Below are positions 1 through 24,877 of a DNA stretch of 27,470 bases, one piece after another. This DNA comes from Utricularia gibba (Eukaryota; Streptophyta; Magnoliopsida; Lamiales; Lentibulariaceae). The stretch lies in contig NEEC01000140.1 in NCBI GenBank assembly GCA_002189035.1, forward strand, positions 1-27,470. Reading direction: 5' to 3'. Both the position numbers and the translations under genes were made by a program. Below the pieces are notes generated by a model. It had not been told where the DNA came from, made no database searches, and saw nothing but the letters and a program-made list of their open reading frames with translations. Position 1 is the first letter of the stretch; every line of letters starts with the position of its first letter.

Positions 1-429
1 TAGAACTTAAAGAAAAAGCATAATTTTCAAAATTTATTATAATCAAAATTGTTTCCAAACAAGAATGAAGCCATTTTTAAATAAATAGGGAAATGGGCCT
101 ACACAAAATAAAAGCAACGTTAGTGAACTAAAATGTTATAACCCAATTTTACTCAACTTGATCTAATTTAAATAGGTTGAACTCAATGTCATATGTTTCA
201 TAGTTTTTCTGATTGGTTTACAATTTCATAATAAGTTTTTTATTTTTTCATGTTATTGATCTAGTAATTGTCTCAAGTGAAATTATGAGATGATTAGTAT
301 TATTATTTTCTTCAGTTTCATTATCTTTATTTATATTATTTATGATCGCATCAGCTTTTTTTTTTCAAACAAAAAATTTTAAGAGTAGTGTTTGTCCAAT
401 CTTTTCTTCTTTTGATCCTTTCCTCACAT
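1..429. other. AT-rich intergenic DNA
   Basis: Very AT-rich sequence with no recognisable gene. An open frame from 342 runs into the retrotransposon remnant that starts near 430, but it shows no family features of its own. The stretch may be decayed flank of the same retroelement. Confidence 0.5.
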
Positions 430-715
430 CTCTTTGGCCTGACGAATGCTCCCTTCATATTTTTTTCTCTCATGAATATTATTTCCTATTGTATATTCAC
501 AAGTTTTTATTGATATTTTTTATGATATTCTTGTTTACAACAAAATGAATAAATGTACTAGCAAACTCTTTGCTAAGCTATCAAAATGTTTCTTTGGAAA
601 ACAATTTATCCAATACGTCACTATGTTATTGCCTACAAATCTAAAAGCTCTTTCTAAGTTTTATGGTTTCATGGGTTATTACCAACAATTTATCCATCAA
701 TCTCTGACTTCTTAA
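430..715 (+). mobile_element. decayed Ty3/gypsy-type reverse transcriptase fragment
   Basis: Three short stretches in different forward frames resemble consecutive blocks of a Ty3/gypsy polymerase. Near 430-480 a frame reads FGLTNAP followed by LMN, like the block that precedes the catalytic motif. Near 490-545 a second frame reads VFID and DILVYNK, like the catalytic VFIDDILVYSK block, but the aspartate pair is disrupted. The same frame continues through 545-715 with KLFAKLSKCFFG and then GFMGYYQQFI, like the KLYAKLSKC and GLTGYYRRFI blocks. Frameshifts and stops separate the parts, so this is a dead relic. No LTRs, integrase or protease were seen. The call rests on motif order, not on a search. 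Confidence 0.6.
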
Positions 716-1733
716 TTCGACTTTCAACCAGAAATAGTACTATAGAAGCAAAATGGATTATTTGACATTTTCAGAATTTTTTTACTTCTCGTTTCTTTTT
801 ATTCTTTATATCAAGATTGTGACTATTGGATGTACCATTATTTTTGTTTCATGAAGATATTTTGCTTATCTTTAGTTTGATTGACTAGATTAGAGCAATG
901 CCTTAGGAAGATGTGGAAGAAGTAGTCATTTTAGTCTAGATTCAAAAAGAAAAATGTGCTAGTTTAAATCTTCATAACAATCTAGTATATATATCTAGTA
1001 GGGAAAAAAATAATTCTAACTTGGGAAACCCAACCTAGAGGTAAACTAATGGATATATATGATGTAATTAGATAGTTGATTTTTTTGGATAGAGATTAAT
1101 ATGATTGAATAAATCTATTCTTATTAATTTTATAAAATGGTAGACTTGAGGGTAAGGTGAAAATAGGATACCTAAGTAAATTAAAATAAAAAAAAATAAT
1201 TGATTTGAGTAGATTTAGATCATCTTGAGCTAGTTTGAAACATGAGTTGAATGAACATTCCACTTTTAGAATTATAAACATATTATCTCTTTATTTTTAT
1301 TGTCACGCAATTATTGAATTCATGCTAGTTTTTGCTTAAACTTGAAATCGATTTTGAAACTAGAATGTATTAAATTTCATGCAATAGGTATTAAACTCCT
1401 TATGTTCAAGCTTAATTCCACTATACAATTGCTTGATTTGTATCTCTAAAAAATTAGGTTTTATAAATTTTATTTGAATCAAAATTTTCATAATTAAACA
1501 ATGACATGGATTTTCGTTTATCAGAAGTCCAATGTGGAGGAAAAGGAAGGTGGAACTAGTGTGTTCTCCTTGGGAATAATGGTATGAAGAGACACAATAA
1601 GCACTCATTAGAGAGATTAAATAGCCGAGCATGCACTCCATGGTTGGTTAACCATCAAAACTGTCTATAATTAATAATGAAAGAACTATCTGCAATTTAT
1701 AGCCAACATCATATTATCATGTTACATGATCTT
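716..1733. other. AT-rich intergenic DNA without a recognised gene
   Basis: Open frames here are short, low-complexity and match no family I know. It may be decayed retroelement sequence continuing from the left, but no specific motif supports that. Confidence 0.5.
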
Positions 1734-2100
1734 GCAAGTCTAAACCAGCACTAGATAGAGTGTTAAATGGTGCAACGTAAAAACTACAATGCTTCAAAGT
1801 TTGATCCCACATCAAATAGAGTGGTATGCACCATTGAGTAAAGCTGCAGTCCTCCACAACTTTAAACCAATATTAGATACAACATTATGCAGTGCTGCAT
1901 GAAGTTGTTCTTTACAATTTTAAACCAACGTTGGATAGGGTTACATAATGCTACATGAAATTGCAATCCTTTGTAAGTTTAAACTACTAGCAGATAGAAT
2001 GGTACGCAGTATTGCATGAAGGTCGTGCCTTTGCAAGTTCAAACCCAACACGAATGGAGTGGTACACAATGTTGCATGAATGTGCAATCATATGAATGTC
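1734..2100. repeat. diverged 60-bp tandem repeat, about six units
   Basis: About six consecutive units of close to 60 bp can be laid under each other. Each starts with a version of aagttTaAACCa, has a middle like agATAGAGTGGTA, and later a version of TGCATGAA. The TGCATGAA or TACATGAA octamer falls near 1896, 1952, 2013 and 2073, a spacing of 56, 61 and 60. Units differ at many positions, so the array is old. No unit contains an open frame of note. This is a minisatellite-like or decayed satellite array, not a CRISPR array, because there are no spacers between conserved repeats. Confidence 0.75.
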
Positions 2101-2595
2101 AAATTTGAGCATTCAATATAAGCATTTTCCTATGAAATCCAAACAATATTATAATAAGATGCAAATATTCAGTTCAACATTTAACATAAGTATTGGTAGA
2201 GCTTGAGAAAATTTTTAAGGTTGGTCAATCCATGAAGTTAAACAAGATTTCTAAGTAAAATATAAATTAAATTAACATATAATTTTTTTTAAGATTAGGT
2301 CAAGGCTGAGTTTGCTCAAGCCCAAGCTCCACCTTAAACATAAACATTGTCATATGAAATCAATAGTCATTCCACTAGAATTTGAAATTATTGACCGGCA
2401 AACGGTTTATAGATGTCCGTGCACGGTTTTGAGTTTCGCATTTTTTATTTTAAAAATGATTATGATAAATTATAATTCAATTAATAAATAGAATGCTTGG
2501 TTTTGGATTTCCAAAGTTTGGATGGCAACTACCGTGCTACGTGGACGTCTTGGCCAACATAACTCATTCCGTGGTGTCTTTCAACCAAAAAAAGG
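2101..2595. other. intergenic DNA and likely promoter of the monooxygenase gene
   Basis: AT-rich sequence between the tandem repeat and the flavin monooxygenase gene. No gene is visible. The last 200 bases are less AT-rich and include ACGTGG near 2539, a possible ACGT-core bZIP site, which is inference only. Confidence 0.4.
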
Positions 2596-2604
2596 TTTAA
2601 ATAG
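2596..2604 (+). promoter_or_regulatory. possible TATA box of the monooxygenase gene
   Basis: TTTAAATAG lies about 70 bp before the ATG at 2673, a usual distance for a plant TATA element with a short leader. Position and composition are the only support. Confidence 0.4.
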
Positions 2605-2672
2605 AGGCTTCCATTTTCCCCCCAAATCCAGTCAAAGCAACTAATCCCTTAACGCAAACTCAAACAGTCAAA

Positions 2673-5146
2673 ATGCAGAAGAGAGTCGCGATCATCGGCG
2701 CCGGAATGGCCGGCCTCCTGGCCTGCAAGCACGCCGCCGCCGCTGGCTTCAATCCTGTGGTCTTCGAAGCCGCGGGGCAAGTCGGCGGGTATGGAATCAC
2801 ACGATGAAGACGACTCGGCTCCAGAACCTGAAACGCTACTTCAGGTTCTCCGATTTCGATTGGCCGTCTCCCGACGCCGACGAGATGTTTCCGGCGGATC
2901 AAGTCCGAGTACGTCAATTCCTACGCCAAGCATTTCGATTTGGCGCGCTACATCAAGTTCAACAGCAAAGTGAGGAGCGTGGATTACGTGGGGGAAAGCG
3001 AAGAGGAAATGGGCATGGGAATTGTGGGGAGGAAGCGGGAGGGCATTTGGATCTAAAGGCAAGTGGAAGCTCCAGGTTCTTGACACCTTATCTAAATCCA
3101 CAGAGGTATTTTTTTTTATTTTAATCACGTAAATTCCCAAGTCAATTAATTAAATATATCGTAACATTATATTATATTCTTTAACTAAGAAATTTAACCA
3201 TAGTTTAGTCATCACCTAAAATAGTAATAATGAAGAGGAACTAGAATGGTGGGGCTGTGGTGTCTTTAATAAATTTTTAAAATATTTAGATTTTTTAAAA
3301 AACTTATTTATGGATTTAAGATAAAAAATGTATTTATTGACTACATTTTTTTTATTAAGTATTGTGTTTGATTAATAGTTATTAAAAATTGAATTTATGA
3401 TTATTAAAATCAAAATTACATTGGTGTCTTTAATAAAATCTTTTTTACTTTCTTATTAATTGTATGAAAAGGGTGAATTTAAAATAATGAGGTTTTTATG
3501 CACCAAACCTATGTAAGAGTTTTGATTGAAATCTTGAAACCCAACTAAATTCTAATTTAATCCTACTTTTGATATCGTTTGAAACCCTAATTGGAGTCCA
3601 TCAATGAGTTAAATGATTAGTGTGGACTATTTTTTTATTAACTTTTAAAATATTATTAATTTAATTCATGTTTTTTCGCCGATTGCTCTTTACGATTTGA
3701 AATCGTTTATCTTGAGTAACAATTTACAGCGATTCTGCCGTAGGAATATGAAGCGGACTTCCTAGTCCTCTGTATCGGAAGGTTTAGCGGCCTTCCGAAT
3801 ATACCAGACTTCCCGATGGCCGTGGACCGGAGATATTCTCCGGGAAAGTCCTGCATTCCATGGACTACTCCGCGATGGACAATGCTGCCGCATTGGAGCT
3901 CATCAAAGGGAAGCGAGTCGTGGTCATCGGCAGTAATAAATCAGCCGTCGATGTGGCTTACGAGTGTGCACTTGCAAACGGTGAGGATTGGTGAATCTCT
4001 GTGTGTTTTTTTCGGTGAATTGCATTTTTCTGAAAGTGATTGAGGTTGGGATATTGTGAATTGAGCTTTGGTCGGCTTTTGGTTTCCAGGAAACGAACTT
4101 CCGTGCACGATGTTGCAACGAACTATTCCGTGGATGATGCCGGACATGTTTCCACGGGGAGTTGATATAGGTGCTCTTCTTTTCAATCGCATTACTGAGA
4201 TGCTGATTCATAAGCCTCGTGAAGGGCTGCTTTACGGTCTCTTGGCTACACTGTTGAGTCCCATGGTATGGTACAAATTTGATCAACATGAAGAATGACA
4301 AAGGTCTAAATTATTTTCTGTTCTCTTTTTTGTAGAGGTGGGCGCTTTCCAAGTTCGTGGAGAGCTATTTGAAGCGGAAGCTTCCACTGAAGAAATACGA
4401 CATGGTTCCAAAGGAACCATTTGTGCAGTATGTTTCCACTTGTAAGGTCATGATCATACCATCGGACTTCTACGACAAAGTGGAAGCGGGAAGTATTGTG
4501 TTCAAGAAGCCTAAAAAGATTTCTTTTTGCAAAGAGGGCTTGATTCTAGATGAACAAAAGGACCAACCATTGGTAGCAGATGTAGTCATCTTCGCAACGG
4601 GATACAAAGGAGACGAGAAGCTCAGGAACATGTTTTCGCGCTCGAGCATCCGAGACATCGTCATCGGCCGGTCTCCAACTTCCCTGATGCCCCTCTACAG
4701 GTACTTTTACTTAGCTTGAGCTTGTATTTGAGTCTCATTGTAAGATGTGTGTTACAACTTTGCAAGTCTATGATGTTTGTTACAGGCAAATGATTCATCC
4801 ACGCATCCCACAAATGGCGGTTATCGGCTATTCAGAGTCTCTTTTGAACATCTACACATTCGAAATGAGCTCCAAATGGCTCGTGGCGTTACTAGATGGG
4901 GCGTTTACGTTGCCCAGCATAAAGGAAATGGAACAGGACATTGAAGAGTGGGGAAAGTACATGAAGAAAATCTCGGTTAATAATGAGTATAGGAGAGCTT
5001 GCATTGCGGGCTTTCACATTTGGTACAATGATCAACTCTGCAAAGATATGGGCTGCAATCCTAGAAGGAAACAGGGGCTAATCCGAGAACTGTTTGAATC
5101 TTATACAGCTGCTGATTATACTGGATTAGACTCCAAGTTGTCATAA
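2673..5146 (+). CDS. plant flavin-containing monooxygenase (FMO1-like), four single-base frame breaks in the assembled sequence
   Basis: Five exons can be placed: 2673-3105, 3744-3980, 4090-4265, 4336-4700 and 4786-5146, all with GT-AG introns and compatible phases. The product is a class B flavoprotein oxygenase that uses FAD and NADPH to oxidise soft nucleophiles. Exon 1 starts with the FAD-binding fingerprint GAGMAG (residues 9-14). Exon 2 holds the FMO-identifying segment [11 protein letters not shown] and the NADPH-binding stretch [14 protein letters not shown]. Exon 4 carries FATGY. As written, the frame breaks at 2787-2789 (one G missing), 2901-2902 (one A extra), 3007-3009 (one A extra) and 3812-3814 (one C missing). 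Allowing for these, the total is 524 codons with stop, a normal length for the family. Exons 3-5 are uninterrupted. It is either a functional gene with consensus errors or a young pseudogene; the substrate cannot be told. Confidence 0.85.
3106..3743 (+). other. intron 1 of the monooxygenase gene
   Basis: A 638-bp AT-rich intron from GTATTT at 3106 to a TAG acceptor at 3741-3743. It joins codons ending ACA GAG to GAA TAT GAA in phase 0. No gene or structured element was seen inside. Confidence 0.7.
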
Positions 5147-11478: not shown

Positions 11479-11973
11479 TCATGGAAAGGGAGAAGAGGAA
11501 GAAGGTCCCCCATCATCATTTTTGCTCGCCTTCTTCTTCTTTTTATCGTACGGCACTCCTCTAGCCTTCCCCTGATGCTCCTTCACCTGCTTCAGATGAT
11601 TCTTTATGTGCCCATTAGCAAACGGGTTGGTCTCCGCCGATCCCCGTTCTCCTCGTAGGCGGCGCGTAGCCTCCCGATCAGGGCGTCGAGGCTCCCCCAA
11701 GCCTGTCGGAGCGGACACGGACACGGCGCCGGCGGCTCCGGGTGTCCGAAGAAGATACACCCTTGGTAATGAACCTTAGTTTTCCCGAACTGGTCCAAAT
11801 ACTGGAGGAACTCGAGGACGTGGGCGCTGGTGCAGTGATACAGGGCCACCGGGGGGCTGGTTCCGGAGGAACTGATTGAAAGTATTCCAGTCACGGCGTT
11901 TCTGCGACTCGTAGCGGCTCGGCGCCGGTGGACCGGACTCGGAGACGGGGAGGGGAACCGGAGACTCGGCCAT
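11479..11973 (-). CDS. ALOG domain protein (LIGHT-DEPENDENT SHORT HYPOCOTYLS type), two compensating single-base frame breaks
   Basis: A single-exon gene for a small nuclear ALOG protein. The family acts in the nucleus in organ boundary, meristem and light-related development. From ATG at 11971-11973 the frame gives [19 protein letters not shown], the first helix of the domain. It then breaks in a run of six G on the forward strand (11851-11856), where one base is in excess. The next frame reads [20 protein letters not shown] and [19 protein letters not shown], the heart of the domain. It breaks again at a four-base C run (11642-11645), where one base is missing, and finishes with [20 protein letters not shown] and a basic KKKKKASKN stretch likely to be a nuclear signal. 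Because the two shifts cancel, the total is 165 codons with stop. Not one conserved domain segment is lost, which argues for sequence errors rather than decay. Confidence 0.9.
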
Positions 11974-16096: not shown

Positions 16097-17782
16097 ATGG
16101 CACCTTCCATGGATCGGGAAACCGCCGTGTACCTCGCTAGACTTGCCGAGCAAGCGGAGCGATATGATGGTGAAATTTATGCCTTTTGAACTCTGTCTTC
16201 TGGTGTTTTTGATTTGATGTGGTTTTCTTTTTTCATTTTAGTGTTAATTATTTATTCTGATCTTTGGGGAAATTATGAATGAGCGAAGTCGTGAGATATC
16301 TCATATTTGGATCAATTTGTTGTGTGGTAGCTTGTGTATTTCGCACTGCGAGAAGTAAGTTAAACTCATCGTTGTGTAGTGTTTTTTTTTTCCTTTTTGT
16401 CTGAAGAGGAAGGATATATTATTGGGTAAAAAATAGCATTACTTCCATGTTTTTCAAGCCAAAACACTGCAGCTATCAGATGCTTTTACTTCAGTATGTA
16501 TTCTTTCTTAACTCATATTTTGTTAAGGGTATATGTTCCTTCTTGAATTACCTGAAGAGAAGTATGCAGTAGCTTTTATTTTTCCTAGAAAACTGATCGC
16601 CTAAGCAGGACTTCTGATACTATGAGAATTGGATTTCATGTTGCAGAAATGGTTGAGACTATGAAAGTGGTGGCTCAGATGGGTGTGGAATTGACAGTAG
16701 AGGAGAGGAACTTGCTCTCAGTGGGCTATAAGAATGTAGTTGGGTCTCGAAGGGCGTCTTGGAGAATATTGTCATCCATTGAGCACAAGGAGGAATCTAG
16801 AGGAAATGAGCAACACGTCAAACAGATCAAAGAGTATCGCCATAAGGTGGAGGCAGAGCTCACCAATATCTGCAGTGAAATAATGACGCTTATTGATGGA
16901 CATCTTATTCCTGCTTGCACAACTGGTGAATCCACTGTGTTTTACTACAAGATGTGAGAGTCCTATACTAATGTAACGCTTGATTCTGCCTGATTTCGTG
17001 TTAACTGTTTTTTTTTTTTTTTTTTTGGTTTGTTAGGAAAGGAGATTACTATAGGTACCTTGCTGAATTCAAGACCCGTAATGATAGGAAGGAGGTGGCT
17101 GATCTGTCACAGGAAGCTTATGAGGTATATGCTGCGCCCGTTTGCATGCTTAATGGCTATAGAAATTGTTCGCTGTGTGTTTGCTGCATATGGTTTGAAA
17201 ATTCATGCTATTTAATCATCTTGAATTGTCAATGAATTTTAGACTTTTTAGTCTAATTGATCCGTATATTTTTTTATCCACTGAAAAACCGGCTTTGCAT
17301 TTGTCCTTGCTGATAGAATGCAACGAAAGCAGCTGAGGCAGAGCTTCCACCAACCCACCCAATCCGCTTGGGTTTGGCTTTAAATTATTCAGTGTTCTAC
17401 TATGAAATCTTGTATTCTCCTGAAAGGTTTGTCTTGCTGCCAATTTATGAAAACGATTCTCTTTTCTTAGCTTTTAAACTCACTCCACTCTCTTTTCAGG
17501 GCATGCCACCTTGCAAAGCAAGCATTTGATGAAGCAGTTTCTGAGCTTGATACCTTGGGTGAGGAATCATACAAAGATAGCACCTTGATCATGCAACTCC
17601 TTAGGGACAATCTGACGCTGTGGACCTCTGACATCACAGATGAAGCAGGTTAAATTCAAATTTCCAATTGCACCTTCCTTCTCCCACCACCGCAATCACT
17701 TGAAAACTAAAACACATACATATCTGCAGATGAACCCCAAAAGTCAGATACTGCCACCAAAGACGGCGCCGTGGTACCATAA
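16097..17782 (+). CDS. 14-3-3 protein, epsilon-like group
   Basis: Six exons, 16097-16169, 16647-16953, 17037-17124, 17317-17426, 17500-17648 and 17730-17782, join in phase with GT-AG introns into 259 residues. 14-3-3 proteins are dimeric cytosolic and nuclear adaptors that bind phosphoserine or phosphothreonine motifs and alter the activity or location of client proteins. The sequence shows the helix-1 region [14 protein letters not shown], the first family signature [33 protein letters not shown], and the second signature-type block around [18 protein letters not shown]. The MVETMK and [10 protein letters not shown] region is closer to the plant epsilon group than to the non-epsilon group. 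An in-frame ATG four codons later (MDRETAV) is an alternative start. All exons are intact. A damaged copy of the exon 3 end, intron 3 and exon 4 start lies inverted at 24651-24877. Confidence 0.95.
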
Positions 17783-18313
17783 TACACTCTCAAAAGCCTT
17801 CATAGTTACCAAACCAGTATAGAGTAACTCTTCTGGCACTTTTGCAGTGAAGTAGCACGTGCTTACCATCATGACAATGGCCTCCAGTACCCATGGTGGA
17901 GTCCAAGGTTTTCTTCTGAACCGTTCATCATCCCATGTTGGTTTTCCTGCCATTCCGCTCTCCATCGATTCCATCGTCTGTCTTATTTCTTTAAGAAGAA
18001 CCCCGGTTTGTTTTTGCATTTGTCCTAGTGTGTGGCTCATAGGTGGTTTTATTTTAGCGACTGCCTTTGCCAGAGGCTTTGCATTCCCCTTGTGGTGTAC
18101 CAGTCTCCTGGTTTGCTCTACGTCAAATACATATTATATGTATCCCCAGTATCCTATTCCTATTCCGATTCCTGATTCATGTTGTGGTGCCTGTTTGTCA
18201 GGGAGAGAGCATAGCATTTTCTCCATATCTTCTTCCCCTTCGGCACCTTCCTTTATTCGGTTTGGAATTGTTCCCAAATGCTCATAACCATTCTGTATGC
18301 GTATCTGTGGTGC
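17744..18313 (-). other. unidentified reverse-strand coding-like frame overlapping the 14-3-3 3' end
   Basis: One reverse-strand frame stays open from 18313 to a stop at 17744-17746 except for a single TAA at 18134-18136, about 190 codons in all. The upper part reads like protein (EGAEGEEDMEKMLCSLPDK, then a GIGIGIGYWGY run). The lower part, from ATG at 18038-18040, encodes a likely amphipathic segment HTLGQMQKQTGVLLKEIRQ and then RRKPWTPPWVLEAIVMMV. I do not recognise the family and could not find an intron that removes the stop. The tail is antisense to the last 14-3-3 coding exon. It could be the 3' part of a convergent gene, a pseudogene, or chance. Confidence 0.35.
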
Positions 18314-18822: not shown

Positions 18823-20639
18823 ATGGAGAATTCGGCTGAGATATCGGCAGTTATCTTTGATTTGGATGGGACACTTGTGAACACAGGTAACTAGCTATCT
18901 GGGTTGTTGGTTTTTCGAACTGGGCTGCGACCAAATCGTGTGTTTGTGTGTGTTTTCCACAGAGCAGGTGACGAAGCATGTCGTGAAGGAGCTGTTGGGT
19001 AGATATGGGAAAGTGCAGGATCCTGAGAAGGAGAAGAGGAGGCTGGGTATGACTTTCAATGAGTCCGCTGTGTCGATCGTGAATGACTATGATCTTCCAT
19101 TGACGCCGGAAGAATATATGCAGGAGATAATCCCTCTCTACCAGGGGAAGTAAGCCTCCTTCTTCTGCATTGTAGAATTCAGTTAGCTGCTACGATGGAG
19201 GAGTTTGATCTTGTGACTGGAACTCTGCACTCTTCTTTTGTATGCAAGGTGGGTACTGGCCAAAGCACTCCCGGTGCAAACCGTCTCATGGTTCATCTTC
19301 AGAAGCATGGGATTCCATTTGCGCTTGCTTCCAATTCCCTGCGGAGGAATATCGATGGGAAGATTTCTCATCATACTGGTAAGTTACCTGCAGGCTTGCT
19401 TGCTTTCAACTCTGATGTTTGAGCTTCAGGCACTTGAATGTCGTGCTCTGGATTCCCTTAGGTTGGAGTGAAAGGTTTGCTGTGATTCTCGGGAGTGATC
19501 AAGTGAAATCAGGGAAACCTTCTCCGGACATGTAGCCATCCATCTCTCTGTGTCCACAGTTTGGCAATCCAGTCTAATGTGCTTCTCTGCATGTTCAGAT
19601 TTCTGGAGGCTGCGAAGACAATGGGAATGGATCCATTTCATAGCCTGGTGATCGAGGACTCCATGTAAGATGACAGGAAGCCTTCAAGAATCTGATGAGG
19701 TTACTCATGATGGGATCATCTTTTGTGTGCAGTGTTGGTGTGAGGGCCGGAAAGGCAGCTGGAATGAAGGTCGTAGCCGTGCCGTCGCTTTGGACGGACT
19801 CCGATTCATATTTGATTGCTGATTCTGTACTTCACTCACTCCTACAGTTCGATCCTGCGCAATGGGGTCTCCCACAATTTGATGACTGTATTATGCTGCT
19901 CATTCATCTTTCAAAGATCACTCACCGCTTTTTTCTTACCACCGGTGAGTTATTGATGGGAATGCCATCCTCGTTGCAGGGATTGATGATGCTTTGCCTA
20001 TTGAACCAATTCATCTCTTTGGAGCATTCAGCAAAGGGCTTTTCCACCATCACTCAGGTTTGATCTGCATAGATTTCTAGTGCATGACACTCCTAAAAGC
20101 TTGAGGTTCAAGAGCATTTTAAGCAGCCATTCCCTTTTGCTGGTTGTCATTTCCTCCTCCAGATAATGAACTGTCACTTCCTGAACAAATCTGGGGACTG
20201 CATGTTGGCTGGGTAAAGTTTGAAGGCTCAAGGGTCTCCAAATCAGTAATAAGCATTGGCTTTAGCCATAGTTGCTGCGGTGGCTCCAAGAGAAGAATAG
20301 TGAGTGCTTGGTTATAGAAATACCATATATTTCAAGCTCAATCTCTAATTCATCCTACTTCCAGCAAACATGTGTTTTAGACGAAATCGATGACAACAAG
20401 AAGACTACTCAAATGGTGATCACTGGGTACCTCAAGAGATCCATCACTGCGGTATGGTTGTGTTCCAAATCTTCCACTTTTGGCTGCTGTGTTCCAGTTC
20501 CTGAGTGGTGAGGTTTGTTTAGGGCAATGGAGTGCAGAGCATTGACATTGTTGAGGAAGACAAATGGAGTGCTGAAGCTGCATTGAAGTTATCTGCATTT
20601 TCACATAAAGTATGCAAATCCTTCTTCCATGAGGAGTAG
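18823..20639 (+). CDS. HAD phosphatase fused to a degenerate riboflavin-kinase domain (paralog of bifunctional riboflavin kinase/FMN phosphatase)
   Basis: Ten exons join in phase: 18823-18886, 18963-19149, 19249-19378, 19462-19531, 19599-19664, 19733-19887, 19980-20057, 20163-20299, 20365-20451 and 20523-20639. One C must be allowed for at 19270-19272, giving 363 residues. The first 225 residues form a HAD hydrolase: the nucleophile motif FDLDGTL with D13 and D15, motif II LASNS (about 110-114), motif III lysine in SGKPSPD (about 146), and the acid motif VIEDS (about 171). Blocks such as LPGANRL, AGKAAGMKVVAVPS and QWGLPQFDDW match plant FHY, which dephosphorylates FMN and makes FMN from riboflavin. 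The rest follows the kinase domain in order (LPIEP, SKG, VGW, SKSVISIG, VITGYLKR) but lacks its glycine-rich LGIPTAN loop, the NPYF block and the EPW..HDF catalytic region. Phosphatase activity is plausible; kinase activity is unlikely. Confidence 0.82.
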
Positions 20640-20691: not shown

Positions 20692-20871
20692 GAATTATTC
20701 TAGTTATCCTTCAACCAGGAGTAAATTGGAATTATTGGAAAGTAGAGGGTGGTAGGTGTAATTCAAATAATTATTAGCACTAGATTCGATGAAATCAAAC
20801 CCTAGATCTCTGCGGGATAGATACAGATATCATGTACGTCTCGCCATCACCGGCCAAAAATTCGGATTACC

Positions 20872-21536
20872 TCATAGCATCACCAAGGCTATCGCTCCAA
20901 AAAGAAGAATTTCAGATGATCGCCAGTACCGATTCCGCGATATCGATCCACTGGTGCTGAAATCTTGGGCGTCGGAGTACACCGTCACCGATCCATTCAC
21001 GCTTCCGTCGTCGGAGTTCAGGCTGCTGCACACCTGAATGTAAGATCGATGAACAGAGTGTAATTCGGAAGCAAAATCGTCTCACCTTGGTGGATATCTG
21101 CAATTATTGTGACCTACATCGAGATGCAGATCTGTTAATTGAACAAATCGATTCACAAATTGAAATGGACTAGGGTTTGTCGGAAGTTGTGATTACTCGG
21201 GTTGAGGGACGTGAGCGCCGCAGTGTTGGCGAAATTGCAGTTCTCGTCGGAGGGGCCGTGCTTGAGGAAATAATCGTTGAAGACGAACGACGCCGTGCGA
21301 CGGATGTCGTAAGCATCGTAGCAAGCGCCACCGAGTTGGATGGGACTGCAATCGGCTCCGCCAGCGCTGCAAGCCCAGTCGATCGCCGATTGGAGAGCGG
21401 CGTCCGCGGCGTTGTTCTTAGCGACACACCACAGCTTCCTTCCCGCCGCGACGGCTCCTCCCTGGGCTGCCGATGGTGAACAAGAGAGCCAGAAGACGAG
21501 CAAAAGGTAACCGGCGGCGAATAGTAGCGATCCCAT
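20872..21536 (-). CDS. X8-domain callose-binding protein, PDCB5-like, GPI-anchored
   Basis: Three exons on the reverse strand, 21536-21197, 21113-21086 and 21025-20872, give 173 residues with all phases matching. The protein starts with a signal peptide (LLFAAGYLLLVFWLSC) that would send it to the secretory route. The X8 (CBM43) domain follows: KLWCVAKNNA, AIDWACSAGGADCSPI, GGACYD, ASFVFNDYFLKHG, and ENCNFANTAALTSLNPS. The last domain cysteine, in HNNCRYPP, is encoded by the 28-bp middle exon. Exon 3 adds a Ser/Asp-rich spacer and ends in a short hydrophobic tail, ILLFGAIALVML, typical of a GPI-anchor signal. X8 proteins of this class bind callose at plasmodesmata. If the introns were missed, the protein would end early without the last cysteine and anchor. 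The nearest relative I can name is the PDCB5 type. Confidence 0.88.
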
Positions 21537-21857
21537 TTACTGCAGTGGGTAAGTTACTGAACGATGAAGAAAATTGACAAAAGGATCGATCAGCTACGGA
21601 GTAGCCGTTAAAAGACGTGGAACATACGTGAAAAATGCCGTCCAAAAAATATATATTATTCTACATTACACATATTAAAAAGAAAATCGTAACGGGCACA
21701 TCGGAAGAGCCGCACTCGTCGATTGAACGCGTCTATCTTCTGTTATCATTAACAATTTATTTTAATTTTAAATAAAAATGGATTAATCAACAAATTAAAA
21801 CATTTTTCCTTATGTAAATCCAAGGTCTTTGATGATTATGGTATATCATATTGGTCA

Positions 21858-24650: not shown

Positions 24651-24877
24651 TCTGCCTCAACTGCTTTTTTAGTCGTCAATTAGAAAGCAAAAATGCAAAA
24701 GGCCGGTTTTTTAGTGGATAAAAAAATGAATCAATTAGACTAATCAAAAATCTGAAACTCATTGACCATTCAAAAGGATTAAATAGCATAGAGCTTCCAA
24801 TCATATGCAGCAAACATACAATAAACAATTTATATGGTCATTAAGAATGCCAAGTGGTGCAGTATATACCTCATAAG
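24651..24877 (-). pseudogene. inverted fragment of a 14-3-3 gene (end of exon 3, intron 3, start of exon 4)
   Basis: Read on the reverse strand, this stretch follows the forward 14-3-3 gene at about 17118-17340. It starts CTTATGAG|GTATAT like the exon 3 end and donor. It keeps intron blocks such as TTTGCTGCATATG, ATGCTATTTAAT, TCTAATTGAT, TTTTTTATCCACT and AAAAACCGG, and it ends with AAAGCAGTTGAGGCAGA, close to the exon 4 start. By eye about four bases in five agree over some 220 bp. Because intron sequence is present, the copy came from genomic DNA, not from an mRNA. It stops sharply at 24877, where a hAT-like end begins. No further 14-3-3 exons were seen nearby. Confidence 0.8.

Follow-up and report, generated by a model that had tools for sequence, protein, structure and literature searches.

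A second FMN phosphatase/riboflavin kinase-type gene in Utricularia gibba with conserved phosphatase motifs and a degenerate kinase half

The window considered here, 27,470 bp in length, is an entire contig (C247) of the Utricularia gibba genome, with searches extending across 100 Mb of sequence in 516 contigs. At positions 18823-20639 of the forward strand lies a gene of ten exons, all with GT..AG borders, which belongs to the FMN/FHy (FMN phosphatase/riboflavin kinase) type known in plants. This gene is flanked by the end of a 14-3-3 gene (17000-17800, forward strand; 180.5 bits) and by an X8-domain gene (20800-21550, reverse strand; 69.1 bits). The window also holds an inverted repeat of approximately 230 bp with 79% identity, one copy of which (17117-17342) falls within the 14-3-3 gene, mostly in an intron, and the other of which (24651-24877) is found on the opposite strand. 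Positions 1-3000 recur on contig C249 (5805-14136) at approximately 99% identity, as complete or partial copies lying in both orientations.

Exons 1-6 and their introns (18823-19887, forward strand) correspond to a HAD phosphatase half, 224 residues long in the second copy of the gene described below. Exon 1 (18823-18886) contains HAD motif I, FDLDGT (residues 12-17; 18856-18873), and is followed by exon 2 (18963-19149), exon 3 with motif II, SNS (19249-19378), exon 4 with motif III, GKPSPD (19462-19531), exon 5 with motif IV, VIEDS (19599-19664), and exon 6 (19733-19887). Exons 7-10 and their introns (19980-20639, forward strand) correspond to a degenerate riboflavin kinase half of 139 residues that contains no in-frame stop. 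These comprise exon 7 (19980-20057), exon 8 (20163-20299), exon 9 (20365-20451) and exon 10 (20523-20639), the last of which encodes the C-terminal region and includes the stop codon.

When the exon 3 acceptor homologous to that of the paralog (19249) is used, the letters of the window yield a coding sequence of 1,091 nt, one base short, and the frame is lost within exon 3. An unbroken protein of 357 residues can be read from the window only upon use of an AG acceptor 17 nt downstream in exon 3 (1,074 nt, with no inner stop). By contrast, a second copy of the gene, found on contig C244 and 99.9% identical, presents an open frame encoding 363 residues with the normal acceptor. The two copies differ after position 19269, where CCCC in C244 is read as CCC in the window, such that the disabling change is not common to all copies. 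The first-pass annotation had considered the gene to be spliced and open. This holds for the ten exons and for the 139 codons of the kinase half but not for the window frame as a whole, which breaks in exon 3. The four HAD motifs reported in the same annotation are indeed all present, starting at residues 12, 112, 145 and 168 of the C244 copy.

A protein search of the genome using the window gene as query returned 27 matches, found at its own locus (C247 and C244), on contig C414 and, more weakly, on C213 and C98. The C414 gene encodes a bifunctional enzyme of 378 residues (Flavokinase, 121.1 bits; HAD_2, 100.5 bits). Exons 1-6 are of equal length in the C244 copy and the C414 gene (64, 187, 131, 70, 66 and 155 nt), and all nine introns are identical in position and phase. 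Exons 7-10 differ from those of the C414 gene by -18, -15, +3 and -15 nt, respectively, all multiples of three. Given this agreement in the lengths of exons 1-6 and in the positions and phases of the introns, the two genes are, as judged from gene structure, true paralogs, as had been proposed, and the kinase-like half is by the same measure homologous to the kinase rather than being a chance tail. In a profile comparison, the kinase half scored 19.6 bits, as compared to no more than 3.6 bits for shuffled copies (the 729 listed of 1,000 made), and hhalign aligned it to three riboflavin kinases with a probability of 94.5%. In a structure search (E up to 0.01; best 60 of 64 matches), no riboflavin kinase chain was matched by the window gene.

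Shared neighbors were sought by comparing 26.5 kb around the C244 copy with 24.5 kb around the C414 gene (ORFs of at least 25 residues, E up to 1e-3), with none being found. Nine matches were obtained, eight of them inside the gene itself, including one in antisense orientation, and one a short match elsewhere (27 residues, 48%). An origin through whole-genome duplication with conserved neighbors was accordingly rejected over this range. Saturated synonymous divergence, together with the lack of common neighbors out to roughly 10 kb on each side, indicates that the duplication is old. In trees of few taxa and long branches that included a provisional Arabidopsis AtFMN/FHy sequence, the C414 paralog grouped with Arabidopsis and the window gene fell outside, with support of 95 (four sequences), 96.1/96 (seven sequences) and 96.4/95 (eight sequences). 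This suggests, as a lead rather than as evidence, that the duplication predates the split from Arabidopsis. A scan of viral contigs for relatives elsewhere, performed once, returned nothing.

The HAD half of the window gene scored 96.6 bits against PF13419 (cut-off 23.8 bits) when the downstream exon 3 acceptor was used, as compared to 100.5 bits for the paralog. The two halves align without gaps and are identical at 107 of 224 positions (47.8%), with identity dropping to 32% in exon 2. Identity to human PUDP is 39.4% (85 of 216 positions) for the window gene and 35.2% for the paralog. In a six-sequence tree, the HAD branches measured 0.56 for the window gene and 0.66 for the paralog and, as such, the former evolves no faster than the latter. 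By profile score, identity and branch length, this half is conserved to much the same degree as its counterpart in the normal paralog, in keeping with the earlier view of a retained phosphatase, and it is under constraint equal to that in the bifunctional enzyme.

The HAD domain most likely acts as a magnesium-dependent phosphomonoesterase of the FMN type, with family membership pointing to FMN as the probable substrate. It could be that the HAD half instead switched to another small phosphate ester, leaving the dead kinase half as a relic. The modest overall identity to the paralog and the lower value for exon 2 would fit such a switch, as would the closest solved structure of the HAD half among the best 60 of 64 matches, namely, human pseudouridine-5'-phosphatase (3l5k), which scored 121.8 bits with the window gene and 108.3 bits with the paralog. 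Human PUDP/HDHD1 (3l5k, 9m7l) is matched by the HAD half alone. Nonetheless, the HAD half matches the family models about as closely as does that of the paralog and shows no acceleration, and a change of substrate is considered rather unlikely.

In the kinase half, by contrast with the paralog, most signature residues are lost. This half fell below the cut-off of the Flavokinase Pfam model (19.6 bits), scoring 12.4 bits when the whole protein was used and 14.6 bits when the half was considered alone, as compared to the 121.1 bits of the paralog. It shares 28.0% identity with the paralog (37 of 132 positions) and 22.0% with the human kinase, with the latter two being 49.6% identical to each other. 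Fifty positions do not vary among the kinases of the paralog, human and S. pombe; the window gene keeps 16 of these in a MAFFT alignment and 14 when residues are read from the intron junctions.

Exon 7, shorter than its counterpart in the paralog by 18 nt, has, in the intron-junction reading, lost the GFGRGSK arch and has HSDN in place of PTAN across intron 7. Because the MAFFT alignment deletes PTAN whereas the junction reading gives HSDN, placement of this region is uncertain, with the PTAN motif being absent in both. In exon 8, which is 15 nt shorter, GVYFGW is replaced by GLHVGW and GWNPYF by GFSHSC. Exon 9 begins with a Gln codon (CAA) at the position of the catalytic Glu codon of the paralog (GAG), has lost EDFYGE and has kept VITGYLKR. 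The replacements listed in the first-pass annotation were recovered, namely, LFHHHSDNELSL for the PTAN loop, SHSC for NPYF and QTCVLDEIDDNK for the EPW..HDF region, as were the C-terminal landmarks SKSVISIG and VITGYLKR, in that order.

The ligand residues described for human riboflavin kinase (RFK) are Pro33, Thr34, Asn36, Glu86, Phe97 and Tyr98 (PMC1079889). In the junction reading of the window gene, the first three correspond to His, Ser and Asn, the catalytic Glu86 corresponds to the Gln that opens exon 9, and both Phe97 and Tyr98 are lost. Catalytic and nucleotide-binding residues are hence missing, as had been claimed, considering the Glu-to-Gln change and the loss of the arch loop and of the Phe and Tyr of the nucleotide site. 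Some nucleotide binding by this half is conceivable, since the magnesium ligands Thr and Asn may survive as Ser and Asn. Alternative exons that would supply the LGIPTAN and EPW..HDF segments, a possibility already raised in connection with the earlier reading, were sought in a genome-wide Flavokinase search run exon by exon on the best candidates, where a miss is no proof. Three candidates were scored and the sole match was the C414 paralog, such that this possibility was rejected.

The combination of a frame and intron phases that are kept with a majority of invariant kinase residues that have changed, as initially described, was borne out by comparison with the paralog and by simulation. Neutral drift was simulated using a simple model with an assumed base composition, starting from the kinase half of the paralog in place of the true ancestor. 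Stop-free outcomes were seen in 8, 3, 0, 1 and 1 of 4,000 runs at 44, 36, 31, 22 and 17% retention of the invariant residues, respectively. As unconstrained drift of such degree almost never leaves the frame open, an old simple pseudogene is unlikely. Relative to the paralog, the kinase half differs at 68 first, 61 second and 93 third codon positions of 132 (third versus second, p = 0.0001). Since first and second positions differ less than do third positions, residues of this half were constrained part of the time, with part of the signal coming from the branch of the paralog. NG86 estimates of dN were 0.49 (HAD half) and 0.79 (kinase half); dS was undefined and, because synonymous sites are saturated, no dN/dS ratio was derived. 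Exons 7-10 match the introns in GC content (0.432 versus 0.438), and codon usage gives a weak signal of 0.088 bits per codon in the true frame, versus -0.096 and -0.437 in the others (with training partly on the gene's own HAD half). Taken together, the in-frame length changes, the simulation and the codon position pattern, alongside the weak codon usage and intron-like GC content, argue for sustained selection to keep the frame open, with demands on the residues having been relaxed or changed.

Such selection need not act on the residues themselves. The kinase half could be an inert tail whose residues drift freely, with stops in exons 7-9 being avoided because, falling ahead of an exon junction, they would subject the mRNA to nonsense-mediated decay, or because they would destabilize the protein. 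This would account for the frame and splice borders having been kept with 34 of the 50 invariant kinase residues changed or gone. The two alignments disagree on whether losses concentrate in the ligand loops. In the MAFFT alignment, 5 of 20 invariant residues are kept in the loops versus 11 of 30 outside (p = 0.54), as freely drifting residues would predict; in the junction reading, a larger share is kept outside the loops (12 of 30 versus 2 of 20, p = 0.03), which speaks against free drift, as does the smaller number of differences at first and second codon positions, allowing for the contribution of the paralog's branch. An inert tail of this kind is considered rather doubtful.

The exon 3 deletion raises the further possibility of a young pseudogene, with the missing base being a genuine allele of a dying gene. 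The whole window (1-27470) is a second, nearly identical version of the stretch C244:1591188-1624045. Across 8.5 kb at the locus, the two versions differ in seven alignment columns, the missing C among them. Within two alignment blocks spanning the window, 6 mismatches were seen and bases were absent at 34 places in the window and at 7 in C244. An excess of missing bases is the pattern of uncorrected long-read deletions. With so many bases absent from the window contig, the exon 3 frame break is likely an assembly error, and frame shifts read in this contig therefore need comparison with C244. At the same time, the contigs look like real alternative versions. C244 contains a 5.3-kb insertion with identical 390-bp direct terminal repeats and a five-base duplication, CCCCC (1607164-1612510, coordinates derived by hand from the alignment), for which window positions 11507-11511 present the empty site. 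This insertion is a very young LTR-type element that is absent from the window version. Given this difference between the contigs, the deletion present in the window could be a real allele. With the C244 copy intact and missing bases so unevenly distributed, a gene in the process of dying is quite improbable.

It is highly improbable that the kinase half still works as a slow or atypical riboflavin kinase with a rebuilt site, HSDN serving for PTAN, for while Ser and Asn occupy the places of the magnesium ligands Thr34 and Asn36 in the junction alignment and bacterial variants of PTAN exist (PMC2972280), the proposed base Glu is replaced by Gln, with changes of this residue to Ala or Asp crippling the C. 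ammoniagenes enzyme (PMC2573891), the arch loop, Phe97 and Tyr98 are lost, and the score lies under the family cut-off.

We thus favor, with moderate confidence, a reading in which the window gene is an old FMN/FHy paralog comprising a likely active HAD phosphatase and a retained, folded, kinase-dead domain. The phosphatase would work in one direction, converting FMN to riboflavin, since no functional kinase would remain on that polypeptide to run the reverse reaction. The C-terminal domain would have stayed folded but kinase-dead, with probable roles in stability, assembly or contact with a partner or ligand; an inert but folded tail, or one that protects the mRNA, fits as well as does a putative regulatory module. 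A bolder and doubtful version places the gene in an ancient, second lineage of FMN/FHy genes in flowering plants that arose before the divergence from Arabidopsis, with the kinase domain having become a non-catalytic sensor or docking module controlling a one-way FMN phosphatase. Were this so, FMN breakdown would be uncoupled from FMN synthesis.

A bifunctional plant FMN hydrolase/riboflavin kinase has been described (PMC2972280). Like AtFMN/FHy, the window gene places a HAD phosphatase before a riboflavin kinase-like domain, a structure shared with the normal C414 paralog; it differs from AtFMN/FHy in lacking the kinase signature, catalytic Glu and arch loop, and in scoring under the Flavokinase cut-off. 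In plant flavin metabolism, loss of one of two activities with retention of the dead domain has been called a common occurrence, with AtFADS1, AtRibF1/2, PyrD and PyrR serving as precedents (PMC9678776), to which RIBA2 and RIBA3 can be added (PMC3509567). All are homologs of bifunctional enzymes in which one domain is catalytically empty or inactive yet encoded. Likewise, the second domain of the window gene is in frame and without catalytic residues in the C244 copy, with the window copy being frame-shifted upstream of it. The precedents are other enzymes of the pathway, with loss having been assayed for AtFADS1, AtRibF1/2 and RIBA2/3; unlike them, the window gene is a paralog that accompanies an intact bifunctional copy, its kinase loss being read from sequence. 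No kinase-dead FMN/FHy paralog was found in the PMC literature among the matches listed. Subject to a search of plant proteomes, the gene may thus be an addition to the known plant habit of keeping dead domains.

Why plant flavin enzymes keep inactive domains is described as an open question (PMC9678776). The window gene would add a phosphatase/kinase case, in which a second copy is probably limited to phosphate removal and an intact copy is present in the same genome. This pairing with an intact paralog permits direct comparison of the role of the dead domain.
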